DNA of 38,041 nt, from assembly GCA_018333815.1 (NCBI GenBank), contig JAGXSN010000178.1, forward strand, positions 1 to 38,041, written 5' to 3'. The notes under the pieces were generated by a model. The model did no database searches, had not been told where the DNA came from, and worked only from the letters and a program-made list of their open reading frames with translations. Position numbers and translations under genes: made by a program. Origin of the DNA: Sulfuritalea sp. GTDB taxonomy: Bacteria; Pseudomonadota; Gammaproteobacteria; Burkholderiales; Rhodocyclaceae. Each line of letters begins with the position of its first letter. Position 1 is the stretch's first letter. This document shows positions 7,485 through 33,222 of this stretch, piece by piece.

Positions 7485-7541
7485 GCTCGCCGCGGTCGGG
7501 AAGCGCCGGCACACCGGCGCTTCCCGCCGCAGGCCTCCTTG

Positions 7542-8345
7542 TCAAAAATAGGTGGTGATCGCCGCGTCGAGCGCGTCGCGCATGTCGGGATCGTCGGTGA
7601 TCGGGCGCACCAGGGCCAGGCGGCAGGCGGCGACCGGATCGACCTGGCGGGCGATCAGCGAACCGGCGTGGATCAGCATGCGGGTGGAAATGCCCTCGTC
7701 GAGGCCGTGACCCTTGAGGTTGCGCGCGCGCTCGGCGACATTCACCAGCTTGCCGGCCATCTCGCGGCTGACGCCGCTTTCATGGGAGACGATCTCGCTT
7801 TCGATGTCGTGCGCCGGATAATTGAAGTCCAGGGCGCCGAAACGCTGCTTGGTGGACTGCTTGAGATCCTTCATCAGGCTCTGGTAGCCGGGATTGTAGG
7901 AAATAACGATCTGGAAGTCGGGATGGGCATGCACCAGCTCGCCCTTCTTTTCCAGCGGCAGCACGCGGCGGTTGTCGGTCAGCGGATGGATCACCACGGT
8001 GGTGTCCTGGCGCGCCTCGACGACTTCGTCGAGATAGCAGATGGCGCCGTGGCGCGCCGCGACGGCGAGCGGGCCGTCCTGCCAGCGCGTGCCCTGGCTG
8101 TCGAGGAGGAACCGGCCGACCAGGTCGGCAGCGGTCATGTCCTCGTTGCAGGCGACGGTGATCATCGGCTTGCCCAGGCGCCAGGCCATGTATTCGACAA
8201 AGCGCGTCTTGCCGCAGCCAGTCGGGCCCTTGAGCATCATGGGCATGCGCACCGAGTAGGCGGCCTCGTAGAGCTCGACTTCGTCGGCGACGGGCAGGTA
8301 GTAGGGCTCTTTCTGGATTCGGTATTGCTCGACTATCTCAGACAT
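7542..8345 (-). CDS. cbbQ: CbbQ, AAA+ (MoxR-type) Rubisco activase subunit
   Basis: [18 protein letters not shown]...[21 protein letters not shown] (Walker A), [12 protein letters not shown] (Walker B); 267 aa. Confidence 0.95.
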
Positions 8346-8404
8346 GATGCACTCCGGAAAAGGAGCGGGGGCCAGGGCGACGGGGCGCGGAAGACCTCGT
8401 CGCT

Positions 8405-8596
8405 TCAGTCGGGCCAGACCCGCGGGGGAAACAGTTTGTCCCGGACGGCCGCGGCCCGCTCCTGGACGGACGCGGCGGGTTTTTCGGCGGCCGCCTGGGC
8501 CGGGGGCCGTCGGGCGGGCGCCGACTTCTGCACCGGTTGCGTCTTGGCGCGCCGCACGCTCGCAGCCAGCTTGCTTTCCATTTTCTTGACGGTCAT
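8405..8596 (-). CDS. mcdB: McdB-like alpha-carboxysome positioning adaptor
   Basis: 63 aa, low complexity, basic N-terminus ([18 protein letters not shown]), Ala/Pro-rich middle, C-terminal Trp (LFPPRVWPD*); ATGA overlap with the upstream ParA gene, between mcdA and cbbQ. Confidence 0.65.
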
Positions 8597-9231
8597 AGCG
8601 CGAGTACCTCCTCGATGATGGCTTCCACCTCGGCCACGGCGGCGGCGCCGCGACCTCCCTGGCCATAGACGCTGGAACCGTCCAGCACGCTGGCCCGAAA
8701 CACCGCCCGCCGTCCCAGGCCGCTGCGCAGGGCCGGCATTTCCATTTCGCTCAGGGCCTGGCCCACGTCGCGCGTCAGGGCGCTTCTGGGTTCCAGCTGG
8801 TTCAGCACCAGCCGGGCGCGGAGCGAGCGATTGTGCAAACGGGCGTCCTCGACGGCCTTCGCCATCGCCAGGCTGGCCCACAGATCGACCGGCGAGGGCA
8901 ACACGGGCACGAGCAGGCTATCGGCCCCGATCAGCACGGCGCGCACGGTTTCGCCGGCCGGCGCGGGAGGGCAATCGACCAGGATGAAGCCGTAATCCGG
9001 CCGGAAGCGCTCCAGCTCGCGGGTCAGCGCCCCGCCGACCCGGATCACCGAGGCCGGGAAAGGCGCGCCATCGGGCGCCTGCGCGGCCCACTGGCTGGCC
9101 GTGCCCTGCGGATCGGCATCGATCACCAGGGTGCGTCCCCGCCGCGCCAGGCCGGCGGCCATGTTCATCGCCAGCGTGGTCTTGCCGGCGCCGCCTTTCT
9201 GGTTGGCGATCGCAATGACGTGCGCCCTCAC
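8593..9231 (-). CDS. mcdA: McdA-like ParA-family ATPase (carboxysome positioning)
   Basis: [22 protein letters not shown] (deviant Walker A), [26 protein letters not shown] start at 9231 with AGGAGG 6 nt upstream; the tracker's TTG at 9246 lies upstream of that SD. Confidence 0.88.
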
Positions 9232-11584: not shown

Positions 11585-13198
11585 TCAGTGTCCCTGCGCA
11601 ACGGCGTCCCCGACCAGCTCGAGACGACTGCCCCTGGCCTTGCCGCGCACCGTCATCGCGCAATGCAGCAGCCCGCTCGCGGCCAGTTCGGCGTGGCGCG
11701 CCAGCAGGGCCTGCCTGACGCGCTTGCAGCGTTCGATGGCGCGCTCGCGCGAACCCGGCACCTGTTCGTTGTAACGGTAATGCACCACAACGGGAATGGG
11801 CAGGCCATGACCGACATTCAGTCCGCGAAAGATCTTGACGCCCACATCGACGTCCGCCGCGCCCTCCTCCACGGTGTCCAGGTGGGCGTAGTAGGCCAGA
11901 TTGCGCAACTGGATGGCATCCTGGTTCGCGCCGACGGCGATGAAACACTCCTGGTGGCCGATATCCGCGTAGCGGCCGCCGTGGTGGTGAATGACGTACT
12001 CGATCTGGGCAAGATTGCTGACCAGAAGATGGGTCAAGAAGCGGCGCATGCCGGCACGGGGTTCGCCCTGCCCCCGGCCTGCGCCTTCCGTATGCGTGAC
12101 CTGGTCGATCATCGCATCCACCGCCTGGCTCGCGCTTCGGGCATCCATGCCGAGTGTCGCGCGGTAGACTTCGGCGCTGGCGATGTAGCGCGCCAGGCTG
12201 ATGTTGCCGCGCCCGTCCGGCAGGTGAATCCTGATGCTGTCGGTATCGGTATCGACGCCGACCAGCAGGATGTCGAGCGAGGCGCCCGGGAAGCTGACTT
12301 CCACCGCCCGGCGCAGAGCGTTCAGGCGGCTCAGGGCGGCCTCCGCGGCAGCGCCATCGTCGCTGCCGTGGGCGGCGCAGCCTTCCTGACAGGGTTTCGA
12401 GCTCGAAAGGTGATAGACCGCCACCTTGAGATAGCGGGTATCCTCGCTCGCCGGATTGGGATCGGCATCGCGATGACGTCTGAGTTCGATGCGTTGCCAG
12501 CGGGCCAGATCCCCCTCGACGTCGAACAGCGCGCCGGCATAGGCCTTGGTGCTGCGCAGGGCGTGCAGCGGCAGCCGGAGCACGAAGCGCTCCAGCCCTT
12601 TGAGGCGACCATCGGCGCAGGGGGAAATATCCACCTCGTGGAACCCGCAGTCGAGGAAGAACCGCCTGGCCTGCTCGACCGCATTGCGCTCCGCCGCACT
12701 GGTCTCGATCTGCTGGTTGGCCACCGCCATGTAGGTCTGGAAAACGCACTCGGCGTAAAGGGCGCGCATGTCGAGCTGCTTGATCCAGGCATCCTCCAGC
12801 ACCGCTGTCGGCAAGCCGAAACCGAGGCGCGTGGCGGCGATCGTCTGGGCGCGGCTGACGAAGTCGCGTTGGTGCTGCAAGGCGGCGATCTCCTGCAGCA
12901 CGGGCACGATGTTGTCGAAGCGTTCTTTCACGCCCCGTTCGTAGGCGAACAGGCGCTCGTTTTGCCCCTTGTCGGTCAGGGCGTGCAGACAGCGCTGCCC
13001 CGGACCGACCGCGCAGATCGGCTGCTCCTGACCGCCGCTCGGCGCGAGGCCGTGCGCCGCGGCAGGGCGGACGAGCAAAGACGCGAACGAAGGCGAACTT
13101 TCCGCGCCCGCCAGGGCGAAAGCCTGCACCCGACGCCCGCCCTCACGATGCGGGCGGCGTGCCTGGGCTTGCAGCTGGCGGGCAGCTAGGGTGCTCAC
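11585..13198 (-). CDS. csoSCA: Carboxysomal carbonic anhydrase CsoSCA
   Basis: 537 aa, GTG start; position between csoS2 and csoS4A; CsoSCA-like segments (LVGVDTDTDSIRIHLPDGRG, YVIHHHGGRYADIGHQECFIAVG). Confidence 0.93.
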   Translation of the reverse strand: MSTLAARQLQAQARRPHREGGRRVQAFALAGAESSPSFASLLVRPAAAHGLAPSGGQEQPICAVGPGQRCLHALTDKGQNERLFAYERGVKERFDNIVPVLQEIAALQHQRDFVSRAQTIAATRLGFGLPTAVLEDAWIKQLDMRALYAECVFQTYMAVANQQIETSAAERNAVEQARRFFLDCGFHEVDISPCADGRLKGLERFVLRLPLHALRSTKAYAGALFDVEGDLARWQRIELRRHRDADPNPASEDTRYLKVAVYHLSSSKPCQEGCAAHGSDDGAAAEAALSRLNALRRAVEVSFPGASLDILLVGVDTDTDSIRIHLPDGRGNISLARYIASAEVYRATLGMDARSASQAVDAMIDQVTHTEGAGRGQGEPRAGMRRFLTHLLVSNLAQIEYVIHHHGGRYADIGHQECFIAVGANQDAIQLRNLAYYAHLDTVEEGAADVDVGVKIFRGLNVGHGLPIPVVVHYRYNEQVPGSRERAIERCKRVRQALLARHAELAASGLLHCAMTVRGKARGSRLELVGDAVAQGH

Positions 13199-13202
13199 GT
13201 CG

Positions 13203-15596
13203 TCAGCCCCGCGCCCCGCCGGAAACGGTCACCAAAGGGCCCTTGATCGTTGCGCCCGCGCTGCCGGTGATCTTCGTGCTCGGCGCTTCAGGGCGTTCGA
13301 TGGCACGATTGGCCTGGGCCCCCGCCCCCGACTGGGCGGTGCGTGCCGCTCCGCGCAGGGTGGGGTTGCGGCTCATCGCCGAAGAGCCTTCGGTGCCGGT
13401 AATGCGACCGCCGCGCTGCCAGGCGTCTCCGGTGATGCTGCGCCCTTCCTGCCGCCCCTCACCAGTGATGCGCTCGCGCGCCGGAGCGGCCGGCTCGCCC
13501 GCAGCGACCGCTTCGGCCGAGGACGCGGTCGGGAGCGCAACGTCAGTCATGTCGGCCAGGTAGCGGAATTCCGGCGTTCCCGAAACCAGGCTGTCCGCGA
13601 GATTGACCGGACCGGTGATGCGGGACCCGCCGGCAGACACGGTTCCGGTGATGCGCTGGCGCGCGGCGCGGGCCGGGCTGACCACGCTGAATGCACTGAA
13701 ATCGGCGCGACCCGCCGCGGGCGGTGCATCGGCCGGGGCCGGGGCAACCTGCGCCTGCCTGTCCGGGCCAAAGCGCGGATGCAGCGCAAGCGGCGTCTCT
13801 CTCGCCTCACGCGCCGGACTGGCCGGCAGACTGTCGCAGAAAGCCCTGTATTGCTCCGGACTGGCATAAGCGCTGCCGGTGATCGACTGGCAAGCGCCCG
13901 TCTCGTCTCCCGTCACCCGCTCGCTGCGCCCGACCTGGCTGCCCGTGACGCGCGCGTCATGGGCAATCGCAGCCGGGCCCGCGTCAGGCTTGCGCGGATG
14001 ACCGACGGTTTCCATGCGGCCATTCCGGCTCACGGGAAAGTATTGGCTACCGCTGATTGGCCGCTCCCCGCCTGCCTCGTCTCCGGTCACGGCGGTGGAG
14101 CGCCCGACCTGGGAGCCCGTCACGCCCTGACCGCCCCAGGTCGTGCTGCCGCCCACCTTGGCCGGGGGCTGATAAGGCGTCGCGCGACAAAACGACTGAA
14201 ACTGCTCGTTGCTGATGTATTCGGTGCCGCTCACCACATGGCAGGATCCGGCCTCGTCGCCCGTGACCCGTGCGCCGCGTCCCACGGCAGTACCGCTGAT
14301 GGCCTGGTTGCGGACCGTATGAGTCACCTCGACCTTGACGGGGGTCTTGCCGCCGGCGGACTGCTGCGACTTCTCGTTGACATAACTCGACCCGGTGATC
14401 GGTCGGCCTGCACCCGCTTCATTGCCCGTGATCTTCTCGCTGCGCTCGACCGGCGTGCCCGTGACGGGCTTGCCCCTCCCCGTGCTGAATACGGCAACCT
14501 TCTCGGCGCCCGGCTGGGGCGCTCCGCCACAAGCCGCCGCGAAGCGGTCCGCCGCGAGGTACTCGGTACCGGTGACCCGCTTGCAGGCGCCCGATTCGTC
14601 TCCGGTGACCTTTTGCACGTGACCGAGTTCGGTACCCGTCACGGTACGGCCTCGCGCGGTCTGGGTGCTGCCCACCTTGTCCGGCCCGGGTGCGGGGCGG
14701 CCCTTGCCGAACAACTCATACTGGGACGCTCCGACGTATTCGGTACCGGTAATCGTGCGGGTGCTGCCCACTTCGTTGCCCGTCACGCGCTGGCGCCGTT
14801 CGACGCTGGTTCCGGTAACGGTTTTGCCCTTGAGCGTTTCGGAGCGCTCGACCTTGGGCACGGCTTCGCCCTTGGCCACGGCCGGGCGCAAGTGGGCCGC
14901 GGGGCGGACGTTGCCGACCTTGCTCCGCCCCCGGACCGATTGTTCCGCCCGCCGCGCCATGGCAATCTGCCGGCCGGTCAGCCCCAGCGCGACGGCTTGC
15001 CCCAGGGTTTCATTGCGCAACAGGCCGACGCCGGCAAGCGTCGCCGCGGCGCGCATTGCCGCCACCCCTTTCTTTCCCTGTGTCGCCAGAGCGGCGCGGC
15101 GCGCCATCGCGTAGGCCCTGCCTTGGGGAAGTGCCGGCCCGGACAGGATCGTTTCGGCCGCAGCCGGAACGCTCCCGGCTCCAGGCGATGCTGCCGCCCG
15201 AACCGCGCCTGCTGCCTGACGCTGCGCTTCAACTCGCGCCGACTGCCGCATGGCCGCAGCCGATCGCATTGCGGTCGTCCCGCCCGCCGCCGCGGCGGGC
15301 GCCAGGGCGACCTTGCCCATCTGCGCCATGGCCTGGCGACGCGCCAGGGCAAAATCGCGCCCGCTGATCTTGGCGGTGATCAAACAGGGCATCTCCAGGC
15401 AGGGCGGTTCGTCGGCGCAAGCCGCAGGAAGCATGTTCGCGGATGCCTTCAACATCGACGCACCGGCTGCTTTCTGTCCGGCGGCCTGCACTGCGACAAC
15501 AGCGGATTTCCCGTTCCGGCTCAGCGCCTGTCGGCGCGCCAGGGCGGCGGCCCGTCCGCTACTAAGCATCACGGCAGTTTGCGATTTGTTTTCCAT
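13203..15596 (-). CDS. csoS2: Carboxysome assembly scaffold CsoS2
   Basis: About 797 aa from ATG 15596; four N-terminal (A/M)ARRxA-type repeats, six middle VTGTxVGRSxxVTGDExG repeats, C-terminal RITGxxx repeats ending KITGSAGATIKGPLVTVSGGARG*. Confidence 0.96.
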   Translation of the reverse strand: MENKSQTAVMLSSGRAAALARRQALSRNGKSAVVAVQAAGQKAAGASMLKASANMLPAACADEPPCLEMPCLITAKISGRDFALARRQAMAQMGKVALAPAAAAGGTTAMRSAAAMRQSARVEAQRQAAGAVRAAASPGAGSVPAAAETILSGPALPQGRAYAMARRAALATQGKKGVAAMRAAATLAGVGLLRNETLGQAVALGLTGRQIAMARRAEQSVRGRSKVGNVRPAAHLRPAVAKGEAVPKVERSETLKGKTVTGTSVERRQRVTGNEVGSTRTITGTEYVGASQYELFGKGRPAPGPDKVGSTQTARGRTVTGTELGHVQKVTGDESGACKRVTGTEYLAADRFAAACGGAPQPGAEKVAVFSTGRGKPVTGTPVERSEKITGNEAGAGRPITGSSYVNEKSQQSAGGKTPVKVEVTHTVRNQAISGTAVGRGARVTGDEAGSCHVVSGTEYISNEQFQSFCRATPYQPPAKVGGSTTWGGQGVTGSQVGRSTAVTGDEAGGERPISGSQYFPVSRNGRMETVGHPRKPDAGPAAIAHDARVTGSQVGRSERVTGDETGACQSITGSAYASPEQYRAFCDSLPASPAREARETPLALHPRFGPDRQAQVAPAPADAPPAAGRADFSAFSVVSPARAARQRITGTVSAGGSRITGPVNLADSLVSGTPEFRYLADMTDVALPTASSAEAVAAGEPAAPARERITGEGRQEGRSITGDAWQRGGRITGTEGSSAMSRNPTLRGAARTAQSGAGAQANRAIERPEAPSTKITGSAGATIKGPLVTVSGGARG

Positions 15597-15653
15597 GACT
15601 ACGATCCGGGGAGTTGGAATCGGTGACAGAAGGATGCGTCGGTTTTCCGTTGC

Positions 15654-15686
15654 GGCCATCCGCGCTTCGTCATGCTACGGACGGCC
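15654..15686 (-). promoter_or_regulatory. Intercistronic stem-loop between cbbS and csoS2
   Basis: Minus strand GGCCGTCCG-N15-CGGATGGCC (9-bp stem, one G-U), 17 nt downstream of the cbbS stop. Confidence 0.45.
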
Positions 15687-15703
15687 ATCGACGGGGTCCG
15701 GGG

Positions 15704-16033
15704 TCAGCGGCCGCGATAAACCACGAAGGCCGTGCCCTGGCTTTGAGCATAGTTATCGTAACCGACCAGGCGGATCATCTGATCGGGATACTCGCGGTGA
15801 CAGGCCTCGACTTCGGCCAGCACGGCATCGACGGACTGCTCGCCGAACAGCGGCAGCTTCCACATGTACCAGTAGTTGCTGGTCGCCTTTTCCTTTTCGG
15901 TGTGCTCGACAGCCGGATTCCAGCCCTTCGAGATCAGATAGACGATCTGCTTCCTGACCTGGTCGGGCGTCATTTGCGGCAGGTACGAGAAGGTTTCGTA
16001 CTTGGGCGACTGCTTGAAGCTGTAATCAGCCAT
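15704..16033 (-). CDS. cbbS: Rubisco small subunit (form IA)
   Basis: [46 protein letters not shown]...[14 protein letters not shown]. Confidence 0.98.
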
Positions 16034-16088
16034 TTGGGTATGTCCTTTCCTTGAAATCTCGCTGAGCGGATGGCGTGCGGGTTACGGG

Positions 16089-17510
16089 TTACTTGTGCAC
16101 CACGTCCAGCTTGTCCACGGTGTCGAATTCGAACTTGATCTCTTTCCAGGTTTCCATGGCGATCTTGAGTTCGGGCGAGTGCTGGGCGGCGGCGATGAGA
16201 ATCTCCTTGCCTTCCTTCTCGACCGGCCGGCCTTCGTTGCGCGCCTGCACGCAGGCTTCGAGAGCGACCCGGTTGGCCGTCGCTCCGGCCGCATTGCCCC
16301 ACGGGTGACCCAGGGTGCCGCCGCCGAACTGGAACACCGCGTCGTCACCGAAAATATTGAGCAGCGCCGGCATGTGCCAGACATGAATGCCGCCGGAAGC
16401 CACGGCGAATGCGCCCGGCATCGAGCCCCAGTCCTGGTCGAAGAAGATGCCGCGCGAACGGTTCTCGGGGACGAAGGACTCGCGCAGCAGGTCGATCCAG
16501 CCCAGGGTGGCCTCACGGTCGCCTTCCAGCTTGCCGACCACGGTGCCGGTATGCAGGTGGTCGCCGCCCGAGAGACGCAGAATCTTGGTCAGCACGCGGA
16601 AATGGATGCCGTGGTGCGGGTTGCGGTCGAGCACGGCATGCATCGCGCGGTGGATGTGCAGCAGCATGCCGTTCTCGCGGCACCAGTTGGCCAGGCCGGT
16701 ATTGGCGCAGAACCCTCCGGTGATGAAGTCGTGCATGATGATGCACGAACCGACCTCCTTGGCATACTCGGCGCGCTTGTACATCTCCTCGGGCGTCGGC
16801 GCGGTGACGTTCAGGTAGTGCCCCTTGCGCTCGCCGGTTTCCCGCTCGGCCTTTTCGACCGCCTCCATGACGAAGTCGAAACGCTGGCGCCAGCGCATGA
16901 AAGGCTGCGAGTTGACGTTCTCGTCGTCCTTGGTGAAATCGAGGCCGCCGCGCAGACACTCATACACGGCGCGCCCGTAGTTCTTGGCCGACAGGCCCAG
17001 CTTGGGCTTGATCGTGCAACCCAGCAGCGGGCGACCATATTTGTTCAGGATGTCGCGCTCGACCTGAATGCCCAGCGGCGGGCCGCCACAGGTCTTGACG
17101 TAGGCGATAGGAAAACGCACGTCCTCGAGACGCAGGGCGCGCACGGCCTTGAAACCGAACACGTTGCCGACCAAAGAGGTGAACACGTTGACCACCGAGC
17201 CCTCCTCGAACAGGTCGATCGGGTAGGCGATGAAGGCGTAGAAGCAGGTGTCGTCGCCCGGCACATCCTCGATGTGATAGGCGCGCCCCTTGTAGTAGTC
17301 CATGTCGGTCAGCAGATCGGTCCACACCGTCGTCCAGGTGCCGGTGGACGACTCGGCGGCCACGGCAGCGGCAGCCTCCTCGCGATCCACGCCTGCCTGC
17401 GGGGTGATCTTGAACACCGCCAGAATGTCCGTATCCAGCGGGGTGTACTCCGGAGTCCAATAAGTCTGGCGATATTCCTTGACGCCAGCGTCATACTTCT
17501 TCACTGCCAT
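16089..17510 (-). CDS. cbbL: Rubisco large subunit (form IA, carboxysomal)
   Basis: 473 aa; active-site motifs [35 protein letters not shown] and [34 protein letters not shown] upstream. Confidence 0.99.
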
Positions 17511-19351: not shown

Positions 19352-20982
19352 CAGTGATCTCCCAGATTTCTCGTTTGGCGTTTCTTGCTCATGAGGATGC
19401 GCATCGCACCGTGGGCAACGACGCCGAGCAGCGTGAGCACGACCAACACCCTCATCGCGTTGTCGAGCCAGGGGGTGCTGTCGCGGCCGGTGATGTAGAT
19501 GCCCTCGATCTTGTCCAGGCGGCCACCCTTGGTGTGGCATTCGCTGCAACCGACCGTATTTTCCTTGGGAGCCACCATGTGGTTGACCGGCCATTGGCTA
19601 ACGGTCTCGATGAAGCCGACCTGGCCGGAGAATGGCAAGCCGGCCGTCTTCATGCCGGCGGCAACCGCTCTTTCCCAGTTCAGGTTGGTCCAGTAGGCCG
19701 TGTCGTTGGCGCCCGCCAGTTGGGTCACCGCCAGGGTCTTGTTGACCGGGTCATACGGCTGCTTGCCGACGTGCGTCTTGATCGGCCAGATCTTCGAGCG
19801 GCCATCCTCCGGGCTGCCCAGGAACTTGTTGATGTAGATCGGACGCTGCGCCGATTCGATCTTTTCGGTCGGCAGGGTGTATTCGACGTCGCCGTTGAAC
19901 CAGATGTAGTCGGGCTTGACGTTGTCGCCGAAGGTAGATGTCCCCTTGTGCCCCTTGTAGATCGGGTTGCCGAGGTCGTCCCTGATGCTCAGGGGTTTGC
20001 CTTTCTCGTCGCGCTTGCCGGCGGTCGACCAGTCCCAGGAGAGCATCGTCGAGACCCCCCCCCGCGCCATGGCGGGAACATGGCAGGTCTGACAGGCCAG
20101 CACCCGGGAGTGACTGTCGAGCCGGTCTGCCTGATCGCCCTTGTGCGGTGTCTGGCCATGACAGGACTGGCAGGTCGCCGGATTTCTCTCCCCCGTCATG
20201 CCGCGGAGACGCGCAGGATCCTTATCCACCGCGGTGGGTGCATAGCGGCTGCCTGGGACATGATGGCCTTCCGTCTGATGGCAGGTCGCGCAGGTGAAAT
20301 TGAGGCCGTCCGCGTTCATGTGAACGTCGATGCTCTTGTCCGGCTCCTCCAGAGAGGAGTCCATTTCACCCTGCTTGACGCCGTCCCCGCCGCCACCGAA
20401 GAAATGGCAACTGCCGCAGGTCTGCCGACTGGTCTTGCCGACATTCTGGGCAATCCGCTTGAGGTTGGTGCCGCGGATGATATTGCCCGAGCCGGGCGGC
20501 ATCTCGACGTCCTTGGCGAACACGTTGCCATTGAGCCCGGAAGGCTTGCGGTAACTGCCCGTGGTGTCGTGACAAACCAGGCAGTCCACCCGCTCCGGAT
20601 CGGTCGAAAGACCGCCCTTGTCGGTCAGCCCGGCGTATCCGACGTGACAACTCGTGCAGGCATGCAGATTGGAAACCGCCGAGGTGCAGTAGTTGTTGAC
20701 CACGTGGCGCTTGCCGACCAGTTCCTTGCTCTTCGGATTGACAAACTCCCATTTCCAGTGCTGGGTATGCATCACCTGGTCGGCCGCCTCGGTGTGGCAA
20801 ACCAAACACGCCCGGGTGACCTCCGGACCGGATTGAAAGTCCTGGTCAAGCTCCTTGAACTTGCCGTGATCGGCCGTAACCGCAGACTTCCGATCGGTGT
20901 CAGCGAACGCCACACCGGATCCCGAAACAACGACGAGCCACCCGACCAGCAGCGCGGTGGCGGCGCGCAGTACACGTTGCAT
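19351..20982 (-). CDS. Octaheme c-type cytochrome, tetrathionate reductase (OTR) family
   Basis: Signal peptide; eight CxxCH motifs counted (ACLVCH, ACTSCH, DCLVCH, TCGSCH, TCATCH, TCQSCH, ACQTCH, GCSECH); C-terminal TM helix. Confidence 0.88.
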   Translation of the reverse strand: MQRVLRAATALLVGWLVVVSGSGVAFADTDRKSAVTADHGKFKELDQDFQSGPEVTRACLVCHTEAADQVMHTQHWKWEFVNPKSKELVGKRHVVNNYCTSAVSNLHACTSCHVGYAGLTDKGGLSTDPERVDCLVCHDTTGSYRKPSGLNGNVFAKDVEMPPGSGNIIRGTNLKRIAQNVGKTSRQTCGSCHFFGGGGDGVKQGEMDSSLEEPDKSIDVHMNADGLNFTCATCHQTEGHHVPGSRYAPTAVDKDPARLRGMTGERNPATCQSCHGQTPHKGDQADRLDSHSRVLACQTCHVPAMARGGVSTMLSWDWSTAGKRDEKGKPLSIRDDLGNPIYKGHKGTSTFGDNVKPDYIWFNGDVEYTLPTEKIESAQRPIYINKFLGSPEDGRSKIWPIKTHVGKQPYDPVNKTLAVTQLAGANDTAYWTNLNWERAVAAGMKTAGLPFSGQVGFIETVSQWPVNHMVAPKENTVGCSECHTKGGRLDKIEGIYITGRDSTPWLDNAMRVLVVLTLLGVVAHGAMRILMSKKRQTRNLGDH

Positions 20983-23951: not shown

Positions 23952-26117
23952 ATGCCCGCTTCCCGCTTTTTGCAGCACGCGCTCCTGCAGCGCTTCTTTC
24001 CGTTTCTGGCGTGGCTGCCGATCAATGCGTCCGTCCTGCGCGGCGACCTGATTGCCGGCATCATCGGCGCCCTGGTGCTGGTGCCGAAGGCGATGGCCTA
24101 CGCCCAGTTGTCTGGCCTGCCGGTCTATTTCGGACTCTACACCGCATTCATTCCGGCCATTCTTGCCGCCTTGTGGGGTTCTTCGCGGCAGTTGCTGACC
24201 GGGCCGGTCGCCATCGTTTCGCTGATGACCGCCGCCGCCGTCACTCCGCTCGCCGTTCCGATGAGCGAGGACTACATCGGCCTGGTACTCCTGCTCACCC
24301 TGCTCGTCGGCATCATCCAGTTCGCGCTCGGCGCCGTCAAGCTGGGCACCATCGTCAACTTCGTGTCCCACCCGGTCATTCTCGGCTTCATCAACGCCGC
24401 GGCGATCATCATCGCCCTTTCGCAGCTGGATCTGCTGCTCGGCATCCCCAAGGGGCGCAGCGGTTCCTTTCTCAAGGACATCTGGGAAATGCTCGCCTAC
24501 CTGCCCCAGACCCATCTGCCCACGCTGGCCATGTCGGCTTTCGCCCTGGCGCTGATGCTCGCATTGAAAAAAGTCAAGATGCTGATCAAGCCGAGCGTGT
24601 TGATCGTGGTGGTCGTCACGACCCTGGTCAGCTATTTCGCCGGCTACGCCCACGACAGCAAGGGCAAGCCCGAGGACATCGTCAACCCGGCGATCCATGC
24701 CCTGGTGATGGGCCACATCGTCGCCGACGACAACATCCGTGCCATGACCGCGGAAATCGCGGACAAATCCGCGGAACTGCGCGCGCTCGGCCAGGAGGAC
24801 GATCTCGCCGAGATCGCCGAGATCAACTATCAACTCGATCTGATGCGCCTGGCAATCGCCAACATGGAGCACGACAACAAGGAGCGCATGCAGCAGCTCC
24901 ATCGGGTCAAGCTAAAGCGCGCCCTTGCTGCCGAAACCGGGTCGGCAAAAATTTACCTCGAGGGCGAAGTGCCGCCGACAGTCGCTACCGATGGCCGCAC
25001 CTGGCACATCAAGAAAATCGAAGACGGCCAGATCGGACTGGTGGGCGGCGGCGAGGTGATCGGCGCCATCCCGTCCGGCCTGCCCGATCTGCGCCTGCCG
25101 ACACTGGGTTTCGAAGCTGTCCTGTCCCTCGTTACCGCCGCACTGATCATCGCGCTGGTCGGGTTCATGGAAACGATTTCGATGGCGAAGGCGCTGTCGG
25201 CCCAGACCAAGCAGCGCATCGACCCCAACCAGGAGTTGATCGGCCAGGGGGTGGCAAACATCGGCGGAGCGTTCTTCCAGTCCTATCCCGCCTGCGGCTC
25301 CTTCACCGGTTCGGCCATCAACCTGCAGGCGGGCGCCCGCACCGGGCTGGCTTCGGTATTCAACGGAGTGTTCGTGGCCGTCACTCTGCTGTTTCTGACC
25401 TCCTGGCTCTACTACCTGCCCAAGGCCGTGCTGGCCGTGATCATCCTGCTGGCGGTCGTCGGCCTCATCACCCCGGCCGCAATCAGGCACACCTGGCAAG
25501 CCAGCCGCAAGGATGGGGCCACGGCCCTGGTCACCTTTTTCGCCACCTTGATCTTCGCCCCCCATCTCGACAAGGGCATCATGATCGGCGCGGTGCTGGC
25601 GATCGTCATGCACCTCCACGAAACGATGCAGCCGCGCGTCGCGATTCTGGGTCGCCACCGCGACGGCACCCTGCGCGACGCCAAGATTCACAATCTGCCC
25701 GCCTCCGACGTCATCACCGCCATACGTTTCGATGGCCGCCTCTACTTCGCCAATGTTTCCTACTTCGAGGAAGCAGTGCTCAACGCCGTCGCCGACAACC
25801 CCGCAGCGCCTTACGTGCTGATTGTCGGCGACGGCATCAACGGCATCGACGCGTCGGGCGAGGAAGTCATCCACCACCTCGTCGAGCGCCTCAACGAGAT
25901 TGGCATCGTCGTGCTGTTCGCCGGCCTCAAGAAGCAGATCCACGACGTGATGCGCGCCACCGGCCTGCGTGACAAGATCGGCAAGAAGCGCTTTTTCGCC
26001 ACCGCCGAGGAAGCCCTCAATGTCATCTACTCGCGCGCCGAGTACGCCGGCGAGGACGATCCGCTGCGCCCGCCGCCGCGCCGGGAACCGATGTCCGCCA
26101 TGAAGCTGCACGAATAA
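23952..26117 (+). CDS. SulP family anion transporter with C-terminal STAS domain and an inserted helical segment
   Basis: LRGDLIAGIIGALVLVPKAMAYAQLSGLPVYFGLYTAFIP, GFMETISMAKALSAQTKQRIDPNQELIGQGVANIGGAFFQSYPACGSFTGSAINLQAGART; STAS domain YVLIVGDGINGIDASGEEVI; about 720 aa. Confidence 0.92.
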   Translation: MPASRFLQHALLQRFFPFLAWLPINASVLRGDLIAGIIGALVLVPKAMAYAQLSGLPVYFGLYTAFIPAILAALWGSSRQLLTGPVAIVSLMTAAAVTPLAVPMSEDYIGLVLLLTLLVGIIQFALGAVKLGTIVNFVSHPVILGFINAAAIIIALSQLDLLLGIPKGRSGSFLKDIWEMLAYLPQTHLPTLAMSAFALALMLALKKVKMLIKPSVLIVVVVTTLVSYFAGYAHDSKGKPEDIVNPAIHALVMGHIVADDNIRAMTAEIADKSAELRALGQEDDLAEIAEINYQLDLMRLAIANMEHDNKERMQQLHRVKLKRALAAETGSAKIYLEGEVPPTVATDGRTWHIKKIEDGQIGLVGGGEVIGAIPSGLPDLRLPTLGFEAVLSLVTAALIIALVGFMETISMAKALSAQTKQRIDPNQELIGQGVANIGGAFFQSYPACGSFTGSAINLQAGARTGLASVFNGVFVAVTLLFLTSWLYYLPKAVLAVIILLAVVGLITPAAIRHTWQASRKDGATALVTFFATLIFAPHLDKGIMIGAVLAIVMHLHETMQPRVAILGRHRDGTLRDAKIHNLPASDVITAIRFDGRLYFANVSYFEEAVLNAVADNPAAPYVLIVGDGINGIDASGEEVIHHLVERLNEIGIVVLFAGLKKQIHDVMRATGLRDKIGKKRFFATAEEALNVIYSRAEYAGEDDPLRPPPRREPMSAMKLHE

Positions 26118-26295: not shown

Positions 26296-26670
26296 TCAGT
26301 CCCCGGCCTCCTTGCAGGCGATAATGATCCGTTCGATCAGGTCTTCGATATCGATCGGCTTCAGGCAGTAGTTGCTCGCCCCCTGTTCCATACCGAGGAT
26401 GCTCGACTGCAGGGAAGCATGGCCGGTCAGCATGATCACCGGAAGCCGGGGCGCGACGCGCTTGACCAGGCACAGGCACTCGATGCCGTCGGCATCGCCG
26501 AGCATGACGTCGAGCACTACTGCATCGGGCCAGCCTGCCTGCACCTCCGCCAGCGCCGCGGCGCAGTCGAGGGCGGTCTTCACCTCATAGCTGCGCCGGC
26601 GCAGGCGGCGCGCCATGGTCTCGAGAAACTCGCTTTCGTCGTCGACCAGCAGGATGTTCTTAGGCAGCAT
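26296..26670 (-). CDS. Stand-alone response regulator receiver protein
   Basis: MLPKNILLVDDESEFLETMARRLRRR...DAVVLDVMLGDADGIECL...PVIMLTGHAS...NYCLKPIDIEDLIERI; no output domain. Confidence 0.92.
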   Translation of the reverse strand: MLPKNILLVDDESEFLETMARRLRRRSYEVKTALDCAAALAEVQAGWPDAVVLDVMLGDADGIECLCLVKRVAPRLPVIMLTGHASLQSSILGMEQGASNYCLKPIDIEDLIERIIIACKEAGD

Positions 26671-29221
26671 GGAGCTGTTCCGCCGCCGTACGGGCGGCAT
26701 TTTCCTGAATCGTGCGGATGTCGGCGCGGATCTTGGCCCGGAACCTCTCGATGAATCCTTCTTCGTCCATCACCATGTCGACCTGGCGCGTGTGGATGAT
26801 CAGGTAGCCGAGCGCCAGCAGGCGCTCGTGCAGATAGGGTATCGGCCTTTTCTCGATGCGCGCCACCAACGCATCGGCTTTGCGGTCCACCCGGAAGCCG
26901 AGTTCCTTGAGCATCTCCGCCAGCAGGCCGACACGCCGGCGCCGGCGCCGCTCGTCCGCCGCACCGCCCTGAAACTGGAAACTGACATAGGACTCGTTGA
27001 GCAATTCAGAGAAATTCGCCTCCGCCAGAGCAAAATGATAGCCGAGGCGCACGCTGAGATTGCAGTACTTCTTCGACACCAGGAAATAGTTCCGGTCGCC
27101 CAGGTTCGAGCGCACGGCCGGATCCAGCTGCGGATTCATCGCCGACTGGGCGATGATCGCACCCAGGCCGCGCACGCTGATCGGCGGCGGCCCCTCCCAG
27201 GGTATCGCGGTCATACCCCCCCAAATGACGCGCATCGGCTCGGAAACGATGTCCTCGATGCGGATGAACTGGGCGGCGGCATCGACCCCCTCCCGGTAGC
27301 CGTCCTTCAGGTTGACCACCCACCACTGGGAAGGACTGTCGGCCACATAAAGCTGCTTGGCCGACTTGTCGCGGGCGCCATGACGCCGGCCGAAATTGAA
27401 CATCTCGTGCAGGGCCTTTTCGTGGCAGAAACGCGTGATGTCGTGCAGCGTGCGGCAGTTCGCCGGCTTGAAGAACGGCGAGTCCGGCTCGGTGAGATGC
27501 AGCGGCGTGACATGGATCAGCGCCTCCTTGAGCAGACCGTAGATCGGACTGCCGACCATCAGGCTGCGGCGCGTGGACGCCCGGGTCAGCAGGGCCTCGA
27601 CGCGACCGGCATAAACCCGGCGGCTGTCGGCGCACAGCGTGACGATCTGGCCATTCTCCAGCCGGGCCGATGCGTCCCCGCCGTCGAACAGGGCCGGAAC
27701 GCCGAACTCCCGCGCCACGGTCGCCAGATGGGTCGCGCTCTGGCCGGTGTCGCTGATCACGCCGGCGGCGCGACTGATGAGCACCGCCCACTCCGGCCAG
27801 GGCGTTTCCACCACCAGCACGGCGCCTTTGGGAAACTCGAGCACGTCGAGCGCGCAATTGACCTTGAACACCGGCCCGACGGCAACGCCTTGGCTGGCGG
27901 TCACCCCGCCCTCCACCAGCAGCTGCGCATCGACCGCGCCGGCAGGAGCCTGGGCTTCCGTTACCGGGACAGGTGCGGTATCGAGCGGTCGCGCCTGCAG
28001 GATGTAGAGATCGCCGCTCGCGTCGATCGCCCACTCGATGTCCTGCGGCCCGCCGAAATGCGCCTCGATGCGCAGGGAGAGTTCCGCCAGTTCGCGCACC
28101 TGCGTCTCGGCAAGACACGGTCCCCGGCCCGGCTGCGCCTCCTTGCGGCAGCAAATGGCATGCGGCGGTTCGCGCTCGACTTCGAGCATGTCGTAGGCCG
28201 CCACCCCATCCACGATCTGATCCCCCAGCCCGAGTGCGGCATGGATCAGCAGATGCCCCGCCCCGGCATCGGCGGGCGGGCGGGTATATACGACCCCGCT
28301 GACATGGGCATCCACCATGACGATGCATCCCACGCACATGATGACATCCTGATGCCGGAAGCCGCGCTGCTGGTGATAGACGATCGCCTGGCTCTGGTAC
28401 TTGCCGGCCAGGATGTCGCGATACACCGGAAGAATATCGTCCAGGCCGATGCGCAGGCGGCTGCGATACTGTCCGGCGAAGGAGCTGACATCGCTGTCCT
28501 CGCCCAGCGCACTCGAACGCAGCGCCACCTTGAAGTCGTTCTTCCCCTGTCGCTCGATCAACTCGTGGGTCTGCGCGCGGATGGCGCGCTCCAGATCGTC
28601 CGGAAAGGATGTCGCCCGGATCAGCTCCTGAATTTCGGAACTGACGGAATAAAGCGCCGTGAGATCGTCGAGGTCCAGGGTTTGGAGCAGGCGATTGATC
28701 TCGATCTGAGTGTGGCTCACCTCCATGAAATGCTTGGCGGCGGCGGCGGTGACAGCGAAGCCGTCCGGAACGCGGATACCCAGCAGGTTGCGCATCTCAC
28801 CCAGATTGGCCATCTTGCCGCCGACCTGGTTAATGAGGCTGCGCTCGATCTCGTCGATCGAGTAGGTGAACACCCTGCCCTTGACCTCGGGCTGGCGCGA
28901 AAGGATCGCCTCGATGCGGTGGGTGACGGCGGCGAAGCTGTCATTCAGGCCCCGGTAACGCCCTTCGGACAGCACCGTCAGGCTCTGGATCATCTTGTAA
29001 ACATTGACCGTCAGCGCCGTCAGCTCGCCGCGCACGAAGGTCATGCCGAACGGTCTGCCCGAGCGCAGCATGGCCTCCGCCCGGGCCATGCCTTCGAGCG
29101 CGTTATTGTTGGCCGTCAGCAGGGCGCGAAAGTTCTTGAAATGCGTCTGGAATGCAGACTGGATGCGATCGTCGTGCCGCCGGCCGCGCCGGCGGAAAAG
29201 GTCAACAATCCAGCCAAACAT
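26660..29221 (-). CDS. PEP-synthase/PPDK-like protein: N-terminal ATP-grasp-type domain, PEP-utilising swivel domain, uncharacterised C-terminal domain
   Basis: VALRSSALGEDSDVSSFAGQYRSRL (PPDK N motif), QDIEWAIDASGDLYILQARPL, GQSATHLATVAREFGVPALF (phospho-His domain); C-terminal ~330 aa show no recognisable PEP-binding TIM-barrel motifs. Confidence 0.82.
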   Translation of the reverse strand: MFGWIVDLFRRRGRRHDDRIQSAFQTHFKNFRALLTANNNALEGMARAEAMLRSGRPFGMTFVRGELTALTVNVYKMIQSLTVLSEGRYRGLNDSFAAVTHRIEAILSRQPEVKGRVFTYSIDEIERSLINQVGGKMANLGEMRNLLGIRVPDGFAVTAAAAKHFMEVSHTQIEINRLLQTLDLDDLTALYSVSSEIQELIRATSFPDDLERAIRAQTHELIERQGKNDFKVALRSSALGEDSDVSSFAGQYRSRLRIGLDDILPVYRDILAGKYQSQAIVYHQQRGFRHQDVIMCVGCIVMVDAHVSGVVYTRPPADAGAGHLLIHAALGLGDQIVDGVAAYDMLEVEREPPHAICCRKEAQPGRGPCLAETQVRELAELSLRIEAHFGGPQDIEWAIDASGDLYILQARPLDTAPVPVTEAQAPAGAVDAQLLVEGGVTASQGVAVGPVFKVNCALDVLEFPKGAVLVVETPWPEWAVLISRAAGVISDTGQSATHLATVAREFGVPALFDGGDASARLENGQIVTLCADSRRVYAGRVEALLTRASTRRSLMVGSPIYGLLKEALIHVTPLHLTEPDSPFFKPANCRTLHDITRFCHEKALHEMFNFGRRHGARDKSAKQLYVADSPSQWWVVNLKDGYREGVDAAAQFIRIEDIVSEPMRVIWGGMTAIPWEGPPPISVRGLGAIIAQSAMNPQLDPAVRSNLGDRNYFLVSKKYCNLSVRLGYHFALAEANFSELLNESYVSFQFQGGAADERRRRRRVGLLAEMLKELGFRVDRKADALVARIEKRPIPYLHERLLALGYLIIHTRQVDMVMDEEGFIERFRAKIRADIRTIQENAARTAAEQLHAA

Positions 29222-29231
29222 GAAAACCTCC

Positions 29232-29272
29232 CCCGGCGCCGCGCCGGAACCTCGTCCCGACGCGGCGCCGGG
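29232..29272 (-). repeat. Inverted repeat between the small membrane protein gene and the PPDK-like gene
   Basis: cccggcgccgcg ... cgcggcgccggg, 12-bp perfect arms, 17-nt loop. Confidence 0.6.
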
Positions 29273-29278
29273 ACGGAT

Positions 29279-29968
29279 TTAGTGTTCGAGCCTCAGTCCG
29301 ATCCCCTCAAACAGGAAGAGGATGGCATACCCATACCATACCGTATAAATGACATAACCCACCAAGGCCGCCAGCACGATCCAGAACAGGTCCATGATCG
29401 GTATGGCTTCGATGCCGTAGTAATTGTAGGCCGGCTCGACGCCCTTGGTGACCACGTCGTGCAGGATCTTGCTCTCGGCAAAGCGCCCCTGGCGATCGAG
29501 ATCCTTCGCCGCGGCGGAAAGGATCTTGTGCCAGTCGAAGAGCGCCTGACGCGCTTCGAGACCATACTTGGCGGTGACCGCCGCGCCGTCATTGGCGAAC
29601 ATCAGGTCGGCATCGGTCAGCGCCTGGCCGAGCAGCTTGCCGAGGTCGGCATCGACGGCCAACTGCATCTCCTGGCGCGTGACGCCGGCCCCGCCCTGAC
29701 CGAGCAGCTTTTCCATGCGCTCGGCCTGGGGCGCGCTGGCGGCCTGCAGGGTCAGGCTGACGGCGCTCCCGGCATGCTTTTCGGCCTTCTCGTTCAGATC
29801 GGGAATGTAATAGGCCGAATTTTTCGAGATCGAATTGAACACGTTGTCGAGATAGCTGATCGTGTTCTTTCCGTCCGGCCACAGCGGCATGAAGAGGACG
29901 GCAAGCACCAGGAAAAATCCGGTCAGCAGAATCAAGCCGAGGCCAAATTCCTTTTTGTCGTGGATCAT
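29279..29968 (-). CDS. Membrane protein with two TM helices flanking a ~140-aa domain, unknown function
   Basis: MIHDKKEFGLGLILLTGFFLVLAVLFMPLWP...IPIMDLFWIVLAALVGYVIYTVWYGYAILFLFEGIGL; SD GGGAGG upstream of ATG 29968, overlapping the end of the permease gene. Confidence 0.75.
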   Translation of the reverse strand: MIHDKKEFGLGLILLTGFFLVLAVLFMPLWPDGKNTISYLDNVFNSISKNSAYYIPDLNEKAEKHAGSAVSLTLQAASAPQAERMEKLLGQGGAGVTRQEMQLAVDADLGKLLGQALTDADLMFANDGAAVTAKYGLEARQALFDWHKILSAAAKDLDRQGRFAESKILHDVVTKGVEPAYNYYGIEAIPIMDLFWIVLAALVGYVIYTVWYGYAILFLFEGIGLRLEH

Positions 29969-29970
29969 GT

Positions 29971-31269
29971 TCAATCCTCCCGCTTGAGCGTCTTGAGGTT
30001 GCTGAAGAATGTCCAGAACACCCAGATCGTGAACGTGCTGAGGACGACGAAGAAGATGGCGATGCCGATGCGCTCGATGAGCAGTCCGGCTTCGGCCGAC
30101 AGCGGAATGTAGCCCAGGTTCCCCAGCTTGCCGGGCAGCGCGAAGATGCGGTTGGCAAAAGCAGCCAGCACGGCAACGGCGAAGAAACCGCGGATGGTCA
30201 CCCCTGATACCACCTTGGTCACCAGCGTGCCGATCTGGATGCCGAACAGGGAACCGAGCAGCATCCCCATCGCCAGCGTGTAGAAGATGAAGCCGTAGAT
30301 CGCATACTGGCCGATGCCCGCGTAGCCCGCGGTGAACACGATTTGCAGGATGTCCGTGCCGACCGTCGTCGAGGCCGAAACGCCGAGGACATAGACGAAA
30401 ATCGGGAAGGTGAGGAACCCGCCGCCCACACCCATGATGGCGGCGGCGATGCCGACGATGAAACCGCTGATGACCAGGAACAGTGCGGAAACCTTGCGGC
30501 CGCCCGGAACCACGCCTTCGTCGAAATGAATCATCGGCGGGATGTTGACCGACTGGATCCTGCGCGACAGCGAGGTCATGTCGTCGTGGTCTGGCGCAAC
30601 CTGATTGCTGCCCTCGACCCTGCCCTGCGCAGCCGGCTTGCGGGAGGCCTTGCGTATCCGCAGGTAGTCGGACAGGCCGTAAAAACCGAGGAAGCCGAGC
30701 AGGAAGACATAGACCGTGGTGATGAAGGCGTCGGAAAGAACCGGGTTGGCCTCGTAGATTGTTCGGTTGATGTAGCCGCCCAGGGTCGCGCCGCCGATGG
30801 AGCCGACCAGGAAGGTCACCGCGAGCATCACGGAAATGTTGCCCAGCTTGCGGTGCAGGACGCTGCCCATGATCGCCTTGGCGAAAATGTGGAACAGGTC
30901 GGTGCCGACGGCAAGGATGCCCTTGACGCCCGCGCTCATGAGCGCGGGGGCGATGATGAAACCCCCGCCGGCGCCGATGCAGCCGGTGATCAGGCCGGCC
31001 ACGACGCCGACGGCGATCGACGCCAGGAAAATCGTGGTCGTGTAGTAGGCAGGACTGAATGCCTGCTTGCCCCCCAACACGTTCGGCAGGGCTTCATTGA
31101 CCGATTCGGCGAAGGTCGTGCCGATCAAGAAGACGGGCAGGATCAGCAGCAGCAGCAACCCCATGCGGCGCCGGTCATGCAGGATGCGGAGCGAGGTGTC
31201 GATTTCCCAGCGCGCGAAACTTCGCGCTCCATGCATCATAAGTGCGTAAAACTCTCTAGAGACTCCCAT
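29971..31269 (-). CDS. TauE/SafE (TSUP) family permease
   Basis: MGVSREFYALMMHG...; duplicated TSUP motifs GLITGCIGAGGGFIIAPALMSAGVKGILAVGTDLFHIF and AAIMGVGGGFLTFPIFVYVLGVSASTTVGTDILQI; SD GGGGAGAG. Confidence 0.92.
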   Translation of the reverse strand: MGVSREFYALMMHGARSFARWEIDTSLRILHDRRRMGLLLLLILPVFLIGTTFAESVNEALPNVLGGKQAFSPAYYTTTIFLASIAVGVVAGLITGCIGAGGGFIIAPALMSAGVKGILAVGTDLFHIFAKAIMGSVLHRKLGNISVMLAVTFLVGSIGGATLGGYINRTIYEANPVLSDAFITTVYVFLLGFLGFYGLSDYLRIRKASRKPAAQGRVEGSNQVAPDHDDMTSLSRRIQSVNIPPMIHFDEGVVPGGRKVSALFLVISGFIVGIAAAIMGVGGGFLTFPIFVYVLGVSASTTVGTDILQIVFTAGYAGIGQYAIYGFIFYTLAMGMLLGSLFGIQIGTLVTKVVSGVTIRGFFAVAVLAAFANRIFALPGKLGNLGYIPLSAEAGLLIERIGIAIFFVVLSTFTIWVFWTFFSNLKTLKRED

Positions 31270-31297
31270 TGCTAACTCTCTCCCCTTAAAAAAACCG

Positions 31298-32980
31298 TCA
31301 AACCCTCTGTTCGGCGCCGCCGGTTTGGCGGCGGTCCGCTGCCGGCAAATACAAACTGAATACCGCGCCACCCTCCTGCCGGTTGGCCGCCGTCAGGCGC
31401 CCGCCGCTTTTCTCCATGATCTCGCGCGAGACGTAAAGCCCGAGCCCCGTGCCCTTGCCCTTCGGCTTCGTGGTGAAAAACGGATCGTACAGATGCGTCA
31501 GCACCGTGCCGCTCAGGCCCGGACCATTGTCGGCGAAATCCGCCGCAACCCGATCGCCGGCAAGGCGGCTGGCGATCTCGATCGAGCCGTCCTTGCCGAT
31601 GGCATCGATCGCGTTGTGCAGGATATTCAGAATCACCTGCTGCAGACGAGCCGGATCGCAGATCGCTTTCGGCAGGTTGGCGCCGTAGCGCCGCAGCAGG
31701 ACGATGCGATGGCGCCTGGCTTCGTGTTCGAACAGCGCCACGGTCTCCTCGAGCGCCTGGTTGATGTCGATTTCCATGTCCCTGCCTTCCGGCGCATGGG
31801 AAAAACCGAGCAGGCGCCGGGTGATCGTGCCGGCGCGTCCGGTCTGCGTCCGGATTTTTCCCAGCGCGAGGAAATAATCCTCCGCATGCAGCAAGCTCTC
31901 CTGCCGCTCGTCTTCCATCAGATCGCGCATCAAGCCGGCCTGGTCCGCAATCAGCTGCAGCGGATTGTTGATTTCGTGGGCGACGCTGGCGGCCAGGCGC
32001 CCGATCAGCGCCATCTTTTCCATCTCCCCCATGTGGTTGACCAGAACACTGCGATCCTGTTCGGCGCGCTCCAGGCGCCCGATCATCGAGCGGGTCAGCA
32101 CCACCGCGACCAGGACGATCAACACCGTCGCGATCGCCACCACGGCCGTATCCAGACGCCGCGCCTCGTCGTAGGACGCCAGGGCCGCGGGCAGGCTGGA
32201 CTTGAGCACCATGAGCCAGCGGCCGTCATTCACCGCAATCGCGCTGACCAGGTGGTCGCCCGACCGGACCGCCTTGCCGCCCCGGTCCGCCAGATCCGCG
32301 AACAGGGCCAGCTGGGCGGGACTGGGGACATCCTGACCACGTCGGCTGGGCGTCTGCCATTCGCCGCGCCGGTTGACGATGAAGGCATCGCCGTCCGGAC
32401 CGACATTCACCGATTCAAGCAGGCTGTTGAAGAAGGCGGAATTGACGGTGGCACGCAGAATCCAGCGCCGGTCGGCATCGGCGACCGCCACGACGAGATG
32501 GGGAACCTGGCGCACGCCGGGAAAGACATCGCTGACGTAGCGCCCCCCCTTCATGACTTCGGCAAACCAATCGGCCTGGGCATAGTTTTCATTGGACAAC
32601 GCCTGTTCGAAGGGGCCGTGGTAGGCGCGATGCCAGCCGAGATGGTCGATGACGCCGAGGTCGGTGATCGCTCCGCTGCGGTTCGTGGCATCGAACAGTC
32701 GGCCGAGGCGCTGTCCGTCGACCAGGGCATGCGGCCCGAAAAACGAAAGATATCCCGCCAGCAGATCCTCTTCGGCCGCCAGGAAACGGTCGATGATTTC
32801 CTTGCGGTCGCGCGCCAGGGTCGTCAATTCGAGGGAAGTCCCCTCGATCCACGAATCCTGGTAGAAACGCGCGGCGTTGAAATTCAGGATGAGCAGCGGC
32901 ACCACGGCCACAACGACGAAGACCAGCGCAAACAGAAATTTCTGCTTGGCATAAAAGGCCTCGCGCGCGCGCACGGTCAT
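31298..32980 (-). CDS. Sensor histidine kinase with extracytoplasmic (double-Cache-like) sensor
   Basis: TM helix, ~240-aa periplasmic region, TM helix, HisKA (MALIGRLAASVAHEINNPLQLI), HATPase_c (DNGPGLSG, FFTTKPKGKGTGLGLYVSREIM). Start taken at ATG 32980. Confidence 0.9.
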   Translation of the reverse strand: MTVRAREAFYAKQKFLFALVFVVVAVVPLLILNFNAARFYQDSWIEGTSLELTTLARDRKEIIDRFLAAEEDLLAGYLSFFGPHALVDGQRLGRLFDATNRSGAITDLGVIDHLGWHRAYHGPFEQALSNENYAQADWFAEVMKGGRYVSDVFPGVRQVPHLVVAVADADRRWILRATVNSAFFNSLLESVNVGPDGDAFIVNRRGEWQTPSRRGQDVPSPAQLALFADLADRGGKAVRSGDHLVSAIAVNDGRWLMVLKSSLPAALASYDEARRLDTAVVAIATVLIVLVAVVLTRSMIGRLERAEQDRSVLVNHMGEMEKMALIGRLAASVAHEINNPLQLIADQAGLMRDLMEDERQESLLHAEDYFLALGKIRTQTGRAGTITRRLLGFSHAPEGRDMEIDINQALEETVALFEHEARRHRIVLLRRYGANLPKAICDPARLQQVILNILHNAIDAIGKDGSIEIASRLAGDRVAADFADNGPGLSGTVLTHLYDPFFTTKPKGKGTGLGLYVSREIMEKSGGRLTAANRQEGGAVFSLYLPAADRRQTGGAEQRV

Positions 32981-33148: not shown

Positions 33149-33222
33149 ATTCCTTCCTGCGGGTTGTTTGGTGCGGGGAGGGTGAAGCATACAGGAAAGC
33201 GCTTTTCATGTAAGCTCCCCCG

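Follow-up and report, generated by a model that had tools for sequence, protein, structure and literature searches.

The 38,041-nucleotide stretch of DNA analyzed here (the window; contig JAGXSN010000178.1 of an 84%-complete metagenome-assembled genome of Sulfuritalea sp., Rhodocyclaceae) carries a five-gene module encoding a sensor histidine kinase (HK), a TSUP-family permease, a protein with two transmembrane (TM) segments, a PPDK-like phosphohistidine protein, and a stand-alone receiver. We give an even chance to the reading that this module is a two-component-controlled transporter of a sulfur oxyanion (thiosulfate, sulfite, or sulfate), in which a dikinase-derived phosphohistidine protein gates or energizes the permease. 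The arguments come from the architecture of the proteins, from the way in which their genes travel together, from their restriction to dsrA-bearing genomes in our samples, and from a published Desulfovibrio gene cluster of similar make-up.

The five coding sequences of the segment 26296-32980 were confirmed to the base (Table 1). The sequence-only reading had described five same-strand genes with tight or overlapping junctions, and all of them were recovered: the gaps are 28 nt between the HK and permease genes (tight, not overlapping), 2 nt between the permease and TM genes, and 57 nt between the TM and PPDK-like genes, while the PPDK-like and receiver genes overlap by 11 nt. A second in-frame ATG lies upstream of the HK start, at 33190. 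No promoter- or terminator-like signals above chance were found. The intercistronic hairpin between the TM and PPDK-like genes folds with a z-score of -6.4, none of 200 shuffles being as stable, and strong but different hairpins occupy the same position in relatives of the genus (L017/L021, L018, L019, L022, and L023); in L020, there is no gap between the two genes. The hairpin may set unequal expression of the membrane and cytoplasmic parts, or it may be a mobile palindrome. The 138-nt spacer between these genes is identical in L017 (14682-14819) and L021 (11893-12030), from genomes G008 and G016, which may mean that very close strains were assigned to separate species or that the bins overlap.

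Table 1. Features of the five-gene module, with coordinates in the window
Feature	Coordinates	Strand	Remarks
Sensor histidine kinase (HK), 560 aa	31298..32980	-	ATG 32980, stop 31298
TSUP/TauE-family permease, 432 aa	29971..31269	-	ATG 31269; Pfam TauE
Two-TM protein, 229 aa from ATG 29968 (231 aa from TTG 29974)	29279..29968	-	orphan
Hairpin between TM and PPDK-like genes, GC-rich, ~20-bp stem, no U-tract	29222..29278	-	RNA folding
PPDK-like phosphohistidine protein, 853 aa	26660..29221	-	Pfam PPDK_N + PEP-utilizers
Stand-alone CheY-like receiver, 124 aa	26296..26670	-	ATG 26670; Response_reg

The module is flanked by plus-strand genes identified with Pfam, namely a SulP permease (23952-26117) and a cobalamin adenosyltransferase (from 33223). 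The SulP permease, on the strand opposite to the module, has a STAS domain, and SulP genes are also found near the module in L017, L018, L031, and L032. Given its place near carboxysome genes, it could serve bicarbonate transport: alpha-carboxysome genes (RuBisCO large subunit, CsoS2, and CsoSCA), together with CbbQ-type AAA and VWA genes, lie at 11588-17510 and 5139-8666 of the window. A multihaem cytochrome with a PF11783 domain (octaheme tetrathionate reductase-like family) is encoded a few kilobases from the module (19354-20982).

The kinase consists of a TM segment, an extracytoplasmic dCache-like sensor, a second TM segment, a HisKA domain (SVAHEINNPL), and HATPase_c. The Pfam match to HATPase_c is strong (3.3e-22), those to dCache_1 (8.6e-09) and HisKA (5.3e-05) are below cut-off, and in the relatives from L154 and L018 the dCache match is above it, so the extracytoplasmic sensor proposed earlier holds. 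Identity in the sensor region amounts to 55-63% within the genus and to ~27-39% for kinases beside PPDK-like genes of Desulfobacterota. For the receiver, Pfam gives Response_reg alone (2.3e-24, residues 16-125 of 134), in keeping with the absence of an output domain noted from the sequence, and the Asp pair, the phospho-acceptor Asp, the Thr, and the Lys are all retained.

The PPDK-like protein is composed of a helical N-domain (~1-115), an ATP-grasp domain (131-416), a swiveling His domain (463-532, with His498), and an orphan C-terminal domain (~556-853), the Pfam matches being PPDK_N (1.7e-76) and PEP-utilizers (2.5e-13). The catalytic ATP-grasp residues and His498 are retained in 83-87 of 88 relatives (His498 in 83). 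The last 298 residues have neither a Pfam nor a PDB sequence match, and no consistent Pfam match was obtained in 43 relatives. A profile of the 88 relatives matched PEP synthase and rifampin phosphotransferase structures in the PDB only to about position 560, and the AlphaFold model (pLDDT 89.9) likewise resembles PEP synthase, PPDK, and rifampin phosphotransferase in the ATP-grasp/His part only; its C-terminal domain is mixed alpha/beta, with an order of elements that is not a (beta-alpha)8 series. Since the PEP/pyruvate-binding barrel was absent in Pfam, PDB sequence, and profile searches, the protein is no PEP synthase, and the earlier suggestion that it is something other than a normal metabolic enzyme of that kind is borne out. 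Scores of the NCBIfam PEP synthase models are below cut-off (303.7 versus 598 bits for PRK06464 and 288.3 versus 739.75 for TIGR01418).

Among known systems, the PEP synthase PpsA (EC 2.7.9.2) shares the succession of ATP-grasp and swiveling phospho-His domains, and the part that aligns with 2ols is 29% identical to it, but the PPDK-like protein has the orphan 298-aa domain in place of the C-terminal barrel, an extra helical N-domain, and scores far below the equivalog cut-offs. Rifampin phosphotransferase is also related to the dikinases and has likewise a different acceptor domain where these have the pyruvate barrel; its His domain comes last, unlike that of the PPDK-like protein, and no similarity between the two acceptor domains was found. 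Enzyme I of the PTS also uses a swiveling phospho-His domain to couple phosphotransfer to transport; its donor part, however, is a PEP barrel instead of an ATP-grasp domain, and neither HPr nor EII is encoded among the five genes. On our reading, the PPDK-like protein would be a former dikinase that now serves as an effector of transport.

In the C-terminal domain, Asp594, His600, His729, Arg763, Asp783, and Asp815 are present in 88/88 sequences. In five Desulfovibrionaceae loci of the order PPDK-HK-RR-PPDK (L065, L068, L071, L072, and L154), the first PPDK copy, preceding the HK-RR pair, has lost most ATP-grasp residues and His498 and has kept the C-terminal invariants. Conservation of the domain in seemingly dead copies suggests a role in ligand sensing or a structural one, and the position of these degenerate paralogues beside HK-RR genes speaks for a regulatory role of the protein. 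The invariants (HDxxRxxHE, His729, Arg763, and Asp783) could equally form an enzyme active site, as their full conservation in active copies makes catalysis possible there too. A second PPDK-like paralogue, of ~1067 aa, is present in at least six members of the genus (G000:C211:2839-5298, that is L024, and L025-L029). In L025, L026, and L028, it adjoins a gene with a low-molecular-weight phosphotyrosine phosphatase domain (the domain being that of the L025 copy), an arrangement also seen in the Nitrospirota contig L104.

The permease is a clear TauE-family protein (2e-35; 123 bits versus a cut-off of 32.6), and its sequence is, by comparison, unusually conserved: the corresponding permeases of dsrA genomes from other phyla are 53-73% identical to it, versus ~30-37% for the other TSUPs of those genomes. 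It shares the family with clade B of Marietou et al. 2018 (PMC5840216), a highly conserved TSUP of sulfate reducers (25/44 genomes; e.g., DVU2958) proposed as a possible sulfate transporter, the likeness being one of family; that paper was not found to connect the clade with any PPDK-like protein. The TM gene follows the 432-aa permease directly in 47/48 loci with room for it (median gap of 11 nt). Its product is without a Pfam match, no consistent Pfam family emerged among its relatives, and neither its sequence nor its model (at E<=0.001) matched the PDB. In the AF2 model (pLDDT 92.5), long hydrophobic helices (7-28 and 193-225) enclose an alpha/beta domain, and basic residues ahead of helix 7-28 suggest that this modeled domain is extracytoplasmic. 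The protein is probably an accessory subunit of the permease on the extracytoplasmic side.

Within the host genus, the 432-aa permease and the PPDK-like protein were found in the identical 8/19 genomes (G000, G008-G011, and G014-G016), and neither was found in the other 11, several of which are complete. For an unbiased view of the neighborhood, 47 full-length PPDK-like loci with flanks were collected by PPDK sequence alone, without reference to TSUP; the loci L154-L173, partly chosen for TSUP, were excluded from these counts. In 31/47, a TSUP permease is encoded no more than 5 kb away, far above the ~0.85% expected from TSUP density (binomial p ~1e-52, in which related genomes are not independent), and an HK-sensor homologue is near 30. 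Since the receiver query matches many unrelated receivers, these were only counted on the same strand and within 600 bp, which was the case in 22/47. At least one of the three partners is present at 42 loci and none at five. Desulfobacterota and Nitrospirota also have the TSUP-TM-PPDK block, in many cases accompanied by HK and receiver genes. The neighborhood, whose conservation the sequence-only reading had proposed to check, is therefore a co-conserved unit.

This unit is made of two parts. The HK sensor tracks the PPDK-like gene even without a nearby permease, as in the Desulfovibrionaceae PPDK-HK-RR-PPDK loci, and is missing from five permease-TM loci without PPDK (L155, L158, L159, L160, and L162), which points to two conserved sub-units, HK-RR-PPDK and permease-TM. 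In several Desulfovibrionaceae, the pair of 432-aa permease and TM gene lies far from the PPDK-HK-RR-PPDK unit, on distant stretches or different contigs of one genome (e.g., L154/L155 and L157/L158), so that the two still co-occur although they are not adjacent.

PPDK relatives were seen to pair with three TSUP/accessory types. In type 1, that of the window, the 432-aa TSUP comes with the orphan two-TM protein. Type 2 combines a TSUP of ~350 aa with a TM protein of 100 aa and a DUF4881 lipoprotein, and either HK/RR genes or a divergent sigma-54 activator (weak dCache) are found nearby. In type 3, a TSUP of ~310 aa is joined by an Alph_Pro_TM protein. The sigma-54 activator variant of type 2 resembles, by description only, DVU0151/DVU0150-0146 of Kazakov et al. 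(PMC4641369). The type labels cluster on the PPDK tree (for types 1 and 2, 0/500 shuffles gave so low a value). What the three types have in common is a TSUP permease accompanied by a membrane-anchored accessory protein of its own, together with a PPDK-like protein and a sensory system.

The distribution of the module is patchy. Using presence cut-offs that were fixed before the tallies but are arbitrary (1e-70 for the permease and 1e-100 for the PPDK-like family), and with some incomplete MAGs among the surveyed genomes, the permease was found in only the window's own genome among 369 genomes of the class, and no genus sampled from the family and order apart from the host's had the PPDK-like protein (at E <= 1e-40). 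Among named contigs, the closest homologous ones are Rhodocyclaceae, one of which the tree places inside the genus group; beyond the family, the nearest relatives come from Desulfobulbaceae and other Desulfobacterota (67-71% identity for the permease, 48-50% for the TM protein, and 46-58% for the PPDK-like protein). This patchy pattern suggests that the module was gained horizontally as a unit.

In the favored mechanism, the permease and the two-TM protein would form the membrane transporter; the dCache kinase would sense an extracytoplasmic signal and phosphorylate the receiver, which would act on the PPDK-like protein; the latter would autophosphorylate its histidine from ATP, and its phospho-His state, together with a ligand at the C-terminal domain, would gate or energize the permease. 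The distant location of the permease-TM and PPDK-HK-RR units in several Desulfovibrionaceae weighs against this explanation. The main rival is that the PPDK-like enzyme traps the substrate by phosphorylating or activating the imported anion, as rifampin phosphotransferase does with its drug, with the two-component pair controlling expression only or being incidental. The intact ATP-grasp and phospho-His motifs, the many invariant polar residues of the C-terminal domain, and the presence of rifampin phosphotransferase, with an acceptor domain unlike that of PEP synthase, among the nearest solved homologues are in its favor. However, the stand-alone receiver has no DNA-binding output, the HK sensor follows the PPDK-like gene even where no permease is nearby, and the degenerate copies preserve the C-terminal domain without the ATP chemistry, so we consider substrate trapping possible but somewhat unlikely.

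The nature of the anion is best approached through the genomes that carry the module. In a survey of 198 Desulfobacterota genomes, each at least 85% complete, 47 had the permease, 67 the PPDK-like family (E <= 1e-100), and 102 dsrA. All 47 permease genomes and all 67 PPDK-like genomes were dsrA-positive, 46/47 of the former also carried the PPDK-like family, and neither was found in any of the 96 dsrA-negative genomes (Fisher p for these tallies of 3e-17, 5e-27, and 2e-27, uncorrected for ancestry). Of 16 further carriers, mostly from other phyla (Acidobacteriota, Nitrospirota, Bacteroidota/Kapaibacteria, and records labeled Myxococcota), 15 were dsrA-positive. Within the host genus, dsrA matches were present in 19/19 genomes (18 above cut-off; 16 passed the aprA cut-off), so no dsr contrast is seen there. 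Three members, the host among them, were checked for gene order and have a dsrE-like gene after dsrB, as in the oxidative arrangement; Pfam confirmed this for the host. An import of electron acceptors is therefore unlikely as the role there, and occurrence in sulfate reducers as well as in at least one oxidative-Dsr lineage points to a substrate that both would use, for example thiosulfate or sulfite. The earlier proposal had left the choice between a C2-C3 acid and a sulfonate or sulfite anion; the restriction to dsrA genomes in these samples favors a sulfur oxyanion and disfavors the C2-C3 acid.

A gene set of comparable plan is the "nitrate cluster" of Desulfovibrio (DVU0251-DVU0245 and Dde_0597-0605), described by Korte et al. 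2014 (PMC4001038) and annotated as TauE permease DVU0251, conserved hypothetical DVU0250, PtxB-like protein, HK, receiver DVU0247, and PPDK-like DVU0246. Like the window, it combines a TauE permease, a conserved hypothetical protein, an HK, a receiver without output domain, and a protein bearing PPDK_N and PEP-utilizer mobile domains, a likeness of plan drawn from gene content (Table 3, PMC4001038). The lengths differ (permease 320 versus 432 aa, hypothetical protein 195 versus 229, PPDK 744 versus 853), its permease is closer in length to the short TSUP types, its HK is a pseudogene in DvH, and it additionally encodes a PtxB-like binding protein and a phosphatase, neither of which is found among the five genes of the module. 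The 842-909-aa genes beside the Desulfovibrio PPDK in L163-L166 were considered as a fused HK-RR-binding protein of this cluster and rejected, the scanned L165 gene being a sigma-54 activator with a weak dCache.

Transposon mutants in the permease, hypothetical, receiver, and PPDK genes were nitrate-resistant and not nitrite-resistant, and the authors propose a leaky thiosulfate importer, citing a mild thiosulfate growth defect as unpublished (PMC4001038). Since nitrate is a competitive inhibitor of Sat, the cytoplasmic sulfate-activating enzyme (PMC9723548), blocked nitrate entry would protect. The Desulfovibrio gene set thus seems to admit nitrate, and perhaps thiosulfate, to the cell; the shared mutant phenotype would fit both the gated transporter and the trapping of the substrate. 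With this cluster on record, the module's designation as an undescribed system was only partly right: a cluster of like composition is published with mutant phenotypes, while its mechanism is not on record, and nothing describing it further was found in the literature beyond that study.

As these mutants were found through nitrate, as TSUP substrates are diverse, and as dsrA lineages are phylogenetically clustered, with Fisher p-values that ignore ancestry, the permease might instead move nitrate, a sulfonate, or a C2-C3 acid, the link to dsrA reflecting shared lifestyle or transfer history. We regard this as distinctly unlikely, considering that nitrate respiration is not shown for either Desulfovibrio strain, that the authors of the mutant study propose thiosulfate (PMC4001038), and that carriers of several phyla are dsrA-positive. 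That an ordinary PEP synthase, a sulfite exporter, and a two-component pair are adjacent by chance, the names that annotation pipelines would give and that the sub-threshold NCBIfam matches recall, is highly improbable, being already contradicted by co-occurrence and adjacency across phyla, scores far below cut-off, and the missing PEP/pyruvate domain.

The passage of sulfate, sulfite, and thiosulfate across the membrane of sulfate reducers is largely unsettled; in D. vulgaris, sulfate reduction continues with all three annotated sulfate permeases deleted (PMC7531388). A module confined to dsrA genomes in our samples, with a plan like that of a nitrate-resistance cluster, offers a short gene list for direct tests and exposes two orphan protein domains and a branch of the dikinases. 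It may also bear on why resistant mutants are selected when oil-field souring is treated with nitrate. A broader proposal, which we consider unlikely, is a new class of transport energization or gating, in which TSUP anion permeases are driven or gated by a receiver-switched, ATP-driven phosphohistidine protein whose ligand-binding domain is unique; if true, it would be a signature device of dissimilatory sulfite reductase organisms, with a loose parallel to a PTS Enzyme I that is fed by ATP.
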